Assembly (NCBI GenBank): GCA_021783235.1
Contig: JAJXUD010000054.1
Span: 1-32,104, forward strand
Direction: 5' to 3'
DNA length: 32,104 bases
From: Myxococcales bacterium
GTDB lineage: Bacteria; Myxococcota; Myxococcia; Myxococcales; JAKAPL01
The notes beneath the pieces are model-generated. The model was not told the DNA's origin and ran no database searches. It worked only from the letters and a program-made list of their open reading frames with translations. A program made the position numbers and the translations under genes. Positions 30,796 through 32,104 of the stretch are shown in pieces (positions within the stretch are counted from its first letter, which is position 1; each line of letters opens with the position of its first letter).

Positions 30796-30803
30796 GCCCT
30801 CGC

Positions 30804-30832
30804 CTCCTATCCGGTTCCGGCGCCGCGGTCAA
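30804..30832 (-). promoter_or_regulatory. Promoter of the membrane protein-plsC operon
   Basis: TTGACC (30832-30827), 17 bases, TAGGAG (30809-30804), then 8 bases to GTG 30795. The -10 box overlaps an AGGAGG that would otherwise serve as ribosome site, so the start could be leaderless or leadered from further upstream. Confidence 0.45.
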
Positions 30833-31028
30833 CAGCGGCGGGGCTCCCCTGATCCGTCGATAAGGGCGCATCTGCTTCGTTGTCGGGCTGGCTGCGGTGC
30901 TCATTACCCCACCACGGTAACTCCGCTCCTCGCCAGCCCTCCGCCTCGCATCTGCACCCTTCTCGACGGCCAGGGCGTTGGGGTGCAAGGGATTCGCTCG
31001 TTACGGACGGATCTGGGGGCTCGAAAAG
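30833..31028. other. Non-coding spacer between divergent genes
   Basis: Together with the two flanking promoters this forms a gap of about 307 bases between the minus-strand membrane protein and the plus-strand PilZ gene. Neither strand shows a convincing reading frame, tRNA or strong terminator. It is somewhat less GC-rich than the genes, which suits a divergent control region. Confidence 0.5.
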
Positions 31029-31056
31029 TTGATTTCGGCGGGAGCCGGGCTACCGT
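31029..31056 (+). promoter_or_regulatory. Promoter of the PilZ gene
   Basis: TTGATT (31029-31034), 16 bases, TACCGT (31051-31056), leaving a leader of about 40 bases with GAGGAGG (31091-31097). The -10 context GGGCTACCGT matches that of lipoprotein copy A. Confidence 0.45.
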
Positions 31057-31102
31057 CGCCGGAGAGGGTCGCGCCACCGCGGCCCCCCATGAGGAGGATC
31101 CG

Positions 31103-31402
31103 ATGGGACATCTGCGAAACCATCCCCGCGTCGCCAGCGGCCGGCCGGTCGAGATCGATCCTGGAGGCGCCGCCATCCGGGGGGAGGCGCGCGACCTGTC
31201 GATGGCCGGCTGCTTCGTCGTCGCGAAGAGCGCGCCGGCCTCGGAGGCGATCGAGATCGTCTTCGCCGAGGGGGGCGAGCAGATCCGCTGCCGGGGTCGG
31301 ATCGTGCGGCGGAGCCTCGAAGGCGTCGCGGTCCGGTTCGAGCGGCTCGACTGGGCTGACCTCTTCGGCCTCGCCCGGCTGGTCTCGCCCGCCCTGGGCT
31401 AG
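31103..31402 (+). CDS. PilZ-domain protein
   Basis: The 99-residue protein is a single PilZ domain. It has an N-terminal Arg cluster (HLRNHPRVASGRPVEI) and the DLSMAGCFV segment, which matches the D/NxSxxG part of the cyclic-di-GMP site. The beta-strands IRCRGRIVRRSLEGVAVRFERL follow. The family usually binds cyclic-di-GMP and modulates motility, exopolysaccharide or other envelope functions. The N-terminal RxxxR spacing is not perfectly canonical, so ligand binding is likely but not certain. ATG 31103 has GAGGAGG five bases upstream. Its stop shares CTAG with the stop of the convergent 56-residue ORF. Confidence 0.85.
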   Translation: MGHLRNHPRVASGRPVEIDPGGAAIRGEARDLSMAGCFVVAKSAPASEAIEIVFAEGGEQIRCRGRIVRRSLEGVAVRFERLDWADLFGLARLVSPALG

Positions 31403-31569
31403 CTCGCCCGGGGCTTCGGCGGGGCGTTCGTCGTGAGGTAGAGCGCCCGGCAGAGGTGGCCCTTCGCGCAGTTCCGCGCGCCGGTGCGCCCGTCCCGTTC
31501 GAGCTCGATGAGGACCTTCCGGCAGCAGTCGGCCCGGTCCTTGTACTTCTGCTCCAGCAGGTCGGCCAT
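31399..31569 (-). CDS. Small Cys-rich protein, 56 residues
   Basis: The frame runs from ATG 31569 to a TAG at 31401-31399. The product opens MADLLEQKYKDRADCCRKVL and continues with CAKGHLCRALYL; Cys residues are at 15, 16, 34 and 40, with a basic Pro-rich tail. Codons are strongly G/C-ending. It starts 9 bases after the stop of the zinc-knuckle gene, so the two are probably cotranscribed. The only ribosome site candidate is AAGG, very close to the ATG. I do not recognise the family; metal binding is plausible from the four Cys and one His. Confidence 0.6.
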   Translation of the reverse strand: MADLLEQKYKDRADCCRKVLIELERDGRTGARNCAKGHLCRALYLTTNAPPKPRAS

Positions 31570-31578
31570 GGCCTTGCG

Positions 31579-31890
31579 TCAGGCCGCGGGGGCGGCCGCG
31601 GGAGCGGGTGCCGCCTCGGAGGCGCCCTTCCGCGCGGCCTTCCAGGCATCGAGGTGCTGCTGGCAGAGGCCGCGCGCGACGGTCGGCTTGCGGCACTCGG
31701 CGGTCGAGCAGCTTCGGAAGCGACGGTGGGGCAGCTCGCCCTGCCGCCACTTCTTGTAGTGGAAGAAGCAGTAGCTCTTGGCTCGATAGGCCCGCTTGCA
31801 GCCCTGGACCGTGCAGCTCTTCTTGCCGCCGCTCTTCGGGGTCGGGCTCTGACGCTTCGCCTGCTTCGCCGCGGTCTTCTTCTCGGCCAT
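31579..31890 (-). CDS. Small protein with two C-x4-C-x9-C-x2-H zinc-knuckle repeats
   Basis: The 103-residue protein has a Lys/Ala-rich N-terminus (AEKKTAAKQAKRQSPTPKSG), then two homologous motifs: CTVQGCKRAYRAKSYCFFH and CSTAECRKPTVARGLCQQH. Each has C-x4-C-x9-C-x2-H spacing and is followed by an aromatic/basic helix (YKKW; LDAW). The tail is Ala/Pro-rich. The pattern suggests two zinc-binding knuckles and a nucleic-acid or protein-binding role, but no function can be assigned. ATG 31890 has CAGGAGCG about 10 bases upstream. Its leader is unusually A/T-rich for the window. Confidence 0.8.
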   Translation of the reverse strand: MAEKKTAAKQAKRQSPTPKSGGKKSCTVQGCKRAYRAKSYCFFHYKKWRQGELPHRRFRSCSTAECRKPTVARGLCQQHLDAWKAARKGASEAAPAPAAAPAA

Positions 31891-31926
31891 GGACCAATCG
31901 CTCCTGACGGGTTTGGAAAAGCGCTC

Positions 31927-31939
31927 CTGTTTAAAACAG
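31927..31939. promoter_or_regulatory. A/T-rich palindrome in the zinc-knuckle promoter
   Basis: CTGTTTAAAACAG has perfect 6-base arms around one base, and it covers the -10 region. It is the most A/T-rich site nearby and a reasonable operator candidate. Confidence 0.4.
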
Positions 31940-31956
31940 CGGGGGTGCGAAGGCAA
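31929..31956 (-). promoter_or_regulatory. Promoter of the zinc-knuckle gene
   Basis: TTGCCT (31956-31951), 16 bases, TTAAAC (31934-31929). It leaves a leader of about 30 bases. CAGGAGCG occurs twice in the leader (31929-31922 and 31906-31899); the second is the ribosome site. Confidence 0.45.
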
Positions 31957-32013
31957 GCGTTGCGGCGCTCGCGAGGCCGCGGGCAGGGCGACGGACCAGG
32001 GCCCGCGGGTGGC

Positions 32014-32048
32014 GGGCGCCCGGGGACCGTTCGGGTCCCCGGACGCCC
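32014..32048. terminator. Strong GC-rich hairpin near the right edge
   Basis: Arms 32014-32028 and 32034-32048 pair over 15 positions with one mismatch around loop GTTCG. No T-run follows on either strand. A weaker 7-bp inverted repeat (GGTGAGC/GCTCACC, 32050-32073) follows directly. It probably ends transcription of a gene beyond the edge. Confidence 0.4.
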
Positions 32049-32104
32049 GGGTGAGCTTCCGCGGCGGCTCACCGCGCCGTCGCTCGACGAACTACGGCGT
32101 CGAG

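Follow-up and report, generated by a model that had tools for sequence, protein, structure and literature searches.

The window analysed here (the whole contig G000:C15, 32,104 bases) ends in a pair of small genes, the first of which is a real, conserved and uncharacterised gene for a protein with two predicted zinc knuckles. The second, a 56-residue companion, is a real but lineage-specific gene. We think it probable, though well short of certain, that the zinc-knuckle protein is a zinc protein of the housekeeping type, encoded on the chromosome of Myxococcota, that would bind nucleic acid and be expressed from an ordinary sigma-A promoter, with the companion as a family-specific downstream cistron. 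Nothing about the two genes seems to resemble a new kind of system; they read as a conserved, ordinary small gene and a lineage-specific orphan. The features of the locus are given in Table 1, and a scan of positions 30800-32104 against Rfam gave no match. The convergent PilZ-domain gene adjoins the pair in the three genomes analysed from the window's family and is treated as a neighbour, for which we claim no part in the zinc-knuckle/companion system. Its stop codon and that of the companion overlap (31399-31402).

Table 1. Features of the zinc-knuckle locus, in window coordinates
Feature	Position	Strand	Description
Convergent PilZ-domain gene	31103..31402	plus	99 aa; Pfam PF07238, E 1.7e-11
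Companion gene	31399..31569	minus	56 aa; family core CCRKVLIEL...GRTGARNC.KGHL.RA
Zinc-knuckle gene	31579..31890	minus	103 aa; ATG at 31890, stop codon 31581-31579
Zinc-knuckle protein, parts			N-terminus rich in K/R, two C-x4-C-x9-C-x2-H fingers, tail rich in Ala/Pro
First knuckle, C26-C31-C41-H44	31759..31815	minus	Residues 26-44; ligands invariant across orthologs
Second knuckle, C61-C66-C76-H79	31654..31710	minus	Residues 61-79; ligands invariant across orthologs
Zinc-knuckle Shine-Dalgarno site, AGGAG	31901..31905	minus	10 nt 5' of the ATG
Probable sigma-A promoter	31928..31956	minus	TTGCCT 31956-31951, 17 nt, TAAACA 31933-31928

An earlier note on this DNA had described a basic 103-residue protein with two C-x4-C-x9-C-x2-H repeats, and both repeats are indeed exact. 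Six-frame translation of the window gives two copies of the motif, against none in 40 mononucleotide-shuffled windows, so the repeats are no chance event. The protein has a pI of 10.4, with 24 Lys and Arg residues versus five Asp and Glu. It is present in 33 of 40 genomes comprising the window's own and its relatives (E<=1e-3), and a profile search found a match in 148 of the 195 genomes of the phylum: 116 carry two-finger matches at E<=1e-20 (counted from the profile-search table) and 32 carry weaker matches only, so that a match at E<=1e-20 is absent from 79. Scanning genome contigs with the single protein, at low sensitivity, gave seven loci titled Myxococcales, Myxococcaceae or Anaeromyxobacter. 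Nothing on the protein appeared among the titles and abstract openings listed in a literature search.

Constant Cys/His positions, to which the earlier note had tied its proposal, are found throughout the zinc-knuckle orthologs, as all eight residues of the two knuckles are invariant in the 31-row alignment (A1), together with K32, R33, Y35, A37, K38, F43, R57 and G74; among the companions, discussed below, the fourth Cys varies. The alignment covers 31 of 37 zinc-knuckle loci. Four were excluded as near-duplicates (L011, L012, L013 and L022), L041 as likely the same record as L004, and L047 as missed by the spacing pattern. The spacing of the knuckles is not absolute. The second finger of L016 has 10 instead of 9 residues in a comparison of 35 rows that leaves aside L041 and L047, and in L047 the first gap is 10 residues long. 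Within the family genomes, dN of the zinc-knuckle gene is 0.21-0.35 and dS 0.58-0.86.

Retroviral-type CCHC zinc knuckles are spaced C-x2-C-x4-H-x4-C; this type was rejected for the present protein, whose ligands are spaced C-x4-C-x9-C-x2-H and for which the Pfam search returned no such family. The protein reached no family cut-off in Pfam or NCBIfam. The short zinc finger model Zf_WRKY19 (PF24906) resembles the orthologs, 16 of 31 of which match at E<=0.1 (best 1.1e-4), although the window protein, at 11.3 bits, stays far below the gathering cut-off of 27. The archaeal protein HVO_0758 and others of its group are likewise very small zinc-finger proteins but are reported to carry two C(P)XCG motifs (PMC10716476), whereas the zinc-knuckle protein has C-x4-C and C-x2-H, with Cys at positions 26, 31, 41, 61, 66 and 76, and was therefore not counted among these micro-proteins.

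Significant profile matches connect the knuckle region to the finger module of phage HNH endonucleases. PHROG 5351 matches residues 24-85 (E 2.5e-12; profile positions 7-73 of 171) and PHROG 1271 residues 6-86 (E 7.6e-11; positions 20-104 of 361), both being annotated as HNH endonuclease. The finger region is thus what the phage enzymes and the zinc-knuckle protein have in common. The matches are limited to the start of the HNH profiles, whereas the 103-residue protein has no nuclease part, and Pfam and NCBIfam searches returned no HNH family up to E 5. Because these PHROG matches stand beside missed cut-offs in Pfam, NCBIfam and Zf_WRKY19, the protein shares a known finger type and belongs to no named family compared here.

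By tblastn, 23 phage records match the protein at E<=0.01, all at less than 60% identity; among the 15 listed, 13 matches lie on genes annotated as HNH endonuclease or endonuclease VII. The two best-ranked records, both Mercurio, fall in an unannotated stretch; at the left end of Mycobacterium phage Mercurio, L132:35-217 matches residues 17-81 with 43% identity (E 3e-6). Four plasmid records match weakly, none over 80% of the length of the protein, and 28 and 19 candidate stretches from viral contigs yielded no confirmed relative. The PHROG and tblastn matches would fit a phage HNH endonuclease finger module that was domesticated without its nuclease. Such an origin is compatible with our preferred explanation, but we regard it as unlikely: the module is short and could have moved in either direction, and in most examined genomes of the order the gene stays at a single chromosomal position.

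Some of the weaker matches in the phylum point to relatives of a different build. Ten such ORFs that we opened (L083-L092), whose open frames are 152-277 residues long, encode paralogs with a single finger. They share with the zinc-knuckle protein a related finger in basic surroundings and differ from it by having one finger, longer frames and, mostly, a basic stretch of the GRP type and a tail that contains LPRGR. By eye, the basic GRP stretch precedes the finger in eight of the ten, three of these with KRGPGRPRK, which we take to be AT-hook-like; L090 has a helix-turn-helix-like N-terminus in its place. The LPRGR-containing tail was also seen by eye in eight of the ten. Both these GRP-bearing paralogs and the phage endonucleases give a hint that the zinc-knuckle protein binds DNA. 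As background, VegA is a histone-like vegetative protein of Myxococcus.

Structure prediction added little for the zinc-knuckle protein. A model built from seven sequences (A5: the window protein and six of the seven contig-scan loci, L044 being excluded) reached a mean pLDDT of 63.5 and a pTM of 0.31, and because the model is poor the fold is unproven. In a two-sequence AlphaFold model of the companion (mean pLDDT 72.7), residues 14-26 form a helix, and residues 30-33 and 39-42 form strands. Foldseek gave no significant fold match for either protein (best E 1.7 for both), nor did a profile search for solved relatives, in which the best zinc-knuckle match had an E of 0.076.

The zinc-knuckle gene has a recurrent neighbourhood outside the window's family. 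In a sample of one locus from each of 30 genomes, 27 of them extra-family, 26 of these 27 (exception L025) have a SpoU RNA methylase gene (Pfam PF00588, E 7e-22) on the downstream side, tail to tail with the zinc-knuckle gene, and 16 have a trypsin/PDZ protease gene upstream; both counts are lower bounds, as the flanks span about 1.5 kb and are shorter at some contig ends. SpoU was also found in 34 of 36 further extra-family loci (L042-L047, L052-L073 and L075-L082; missing in L069 and L078), some of which come from genomes already counted. A purC-type gene follows SpoU in many loci, and the order-wide arrangement of a variable trypsin/PDZ protease gene, the zinc-knuckle gene, the convergent SpoU methylase gene and purC can be seen in L002, L005-L030 and L042-L047. 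In all three genomes analysed from the window's family this arrangement is missing at the locus, where the zinc-knuckle gene is followed instead by the companion and then by the PilZ gene in convergent orientation. Upstream, L003 has a NUDIX gene.

The SpoU neighbourhood hints at RNA as the ligand, and a strongly basic protein tail to tail with a SpoU gene in nearly all extra-family genomes of the sample might act on RNA together with its neighbour, as a factor that associates with ribosomes or tRNA and is linked to the methylase. This possibility too is compatible with our preferred explanation, and we give it rather little weight, since convergent genes are unlikely to share one transcript and the link is missing at the locus in the three family genomes as well as in L025, L069 and L078.

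The earlier note had also reported a tiny ORF with four Cys after 9 bases. The companion ATG is separated from the stop codon of the zinc-knuckle gene by exactly 9 bases, and the four Cys are at positions 15, 16, 34 and 40. Three genomes of the window's family were analysed, one of them 69% complete. The companion is conserved in all three (61-71% identity to the window's, tblastn), as the proposal in the earlier note required, and the gap to the zinc-knuckle gene measures 9-11 bp in each. With dN of 0.21-0.33 and dS of 0.48-0.67 over 52-54 codons, the companion is under purifying selection in the three genomes. Two further companions, outside the family, are 37% identical to the window's. Invariant in all five are C15, C16, C34, H38 and the stretch RTGARNC, with C40 replaced by Val in L041, L050 and L051; the conserved ligand set would thus be Cys-Cys, Cys and His, and these four would fit one metal ion. 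A reading of the companion as a spurious ORF or decaying gene draws on its mere 56 residues, the missing family match in Pfam, NCBIfam and PHROGs, and a dN/dS of 0.3-0.5 that is only moderately low. We find this reading very hard to credit, given that the gene is kept in all three family genomes analysed and is recognisable, with the same invariant residues, in two distant ones. The companion was also compared with the zinc-knuckle family as a possible diverged finger and rejected (profile comparison probability 0.2%).

Outside the window's family the companion keeps different company. A profile search found it in 5 of the 147 genomes of the class. With the five-row profile, matches occurred in 9 of the 195 genomes of the phylum, five clear and four weak, although very diverged companions may have been missed because scoring was limited to 34-45 first-look candidates in each genome. 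The weak matches (G058, G006, G159 and G162; E 7.8e-4 to 8.3e-3) lack the CC ... TGARNC ... GH core and were dropped on reading; in three of them, stop codons interrupt the translated stretch. Both extra-family companions lie directly behind a radical-SAM gene (L050:1486-1665 and L051:1423-1611; the L051 protein matches Pfam PF04055 at E 9.5e-16). This radical-SAM gene has matches in 57 of 60 genomes, among them that of the window, and the companion pattern is absent from all 30 of the matching loci that were fetched, some of which may end early.

This distribution bears on the claim of an uncharacterised metal- or nucleic-acid-binding pair. The basic protein, its invariant Cys/His and the missed Pfam and NCBIfam cut-offs all stand, whereas a conserved pair does not: the companion is found beside the zinc-knuckle gene only in the window's family. 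An obligate two-gene module was rejected, as the companion occurs in 5 of 195 genomes (adjacent in three) versus 116 for the two-finger gene. Partner proteins or a toxin-antitoxin-like module would be in keeping with the short gaps and with a dN below dS for both genes in the family. We nevertheless judge a dedicated functional pair improbable. Among the first-look candidates scored, no companion was detected in 112 of the 116 two-finger genomes; G100 carries it without a two-finger match, and in G095 the two genes are on different contigs. Moreover, plasmid matches to the zinc-knuckle protein are only partial, plasmid and phage searches gave no companion match, and no viral contig held a confirmed relative. 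A more far-reaching idea sees in the companion the first member of a new micro-protein family, metal-binding through Cys-Cys ... Asn-Cys-x2-Gly-His, whose members join unrelated genes (a radical-SAM enzyme gene in two genomes, the zinc-knuckle gene in the window's family) as metal-handing or metal-sensing adaptors. In the window it would then regulate the zinc-knuckle protein or load it with metal; this idea we consider decidedly doubtful.

The upstream region had been described as a palindromic promoter with a duplicated octamer. Both elements are present. The palindrome CTGTTTAAAACAG at 31927-31939 has 6-bp arms around one base; of 118 inverted repeats in the window with 6-bp arms and a spacer of 0-3, only two have at least four A/T per arm, which makes it unusual for this GC-rich window but a single case. 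The octamer CAGGAGCG occurs twice on the minus strand (31922-31929 and 31899-31906), a duplication that is unremarkable by itself because the window holds 249 comparable 8-mer repeats 8-40 nt apart (7.8 per kb). Their role as special promoter features did not hold up. The octamer copy at 31899-31906 contains the AGGAG Shine-Dalgarno site, and AGGAG or AAGGAG is likewise found upstream of the zinc-knuckle gene in L003 and L004. The symmetrical CTGTTTTAAACAG covers the likely -10 element of TTGCCT-17-TAAACA, and the two family relatives have TTGCCT-17-TAAGAA (L003) and TTGCCA-17-TAGAAA (L004) upstream without palindromic symmetry. The distance from promoter to ATG is 61 nt in L003 versus 37 nt in the window.

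The promoter score of the window was reached in one of 100 shuffles. Starts were located for 36 loci, and the upstream regions of 30 of these (L001-L030) were scored; 15 reach p<=0.05 (100 shuffles each), and an inverted repeat with 6-bp arms lies at the promoter in two, those of the window and L027. A stricter scan of 31000-32104 found neither a promoter nor a terminator. With moderate confidence, we predict an ordinary sigma-A promoter and a ribosome-binding site upstream of the zinc-knuckle gene. Two further observations were made by eye. In the leader of L041 (L041:3963-3993), and in this genome only, an inverted repeat AACGGCTCC ... GGAGCCGTT, whose second arm covers most of the zinc-knuckle Shine-Dalgarno site, may form a hairpin. 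In several families, the -10 element is followed at a short distance by a run of pyrimidines resembling CCTTTTTC (L009, L012, L014, L017, L022-L026 and L028-L030).

In the explanation that we favour, each of the two CCCH knuckles would hold one Zn2+, and together they would form a basic core between flexible tails, one Lys-rich and one Ala/Pro-rich. Through its basic fingers and tails, the protein would bind nucleic acid, either RNA or DNA, and would discriminate little between sequences. Its gene would be expressed constitutively from the ordinary sigma-A promoter. The companion would have become a downstream cistron, presumably co-transcribed, in the window's family alone; with its Cys-Cys, Cys and His it is probably metal-binding, and it belongs to an independent small family whose members elsewhere lie behind another gene.

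The zinc-knuckle gene offers a well-bounded, conserved and unnamed myxobacterial gene that is amenable to knockout, and its product is probably a small, basic, predicted nucleic-acid-binding zinc protein. The companion represents a small, possibly metal-binding protein that is found behind different genes in different lineages. Our findings suggest that short CCCH fingers are not confined to phage nucleases but also make up a bacterial protein of their own, kept at one chromosomal place.
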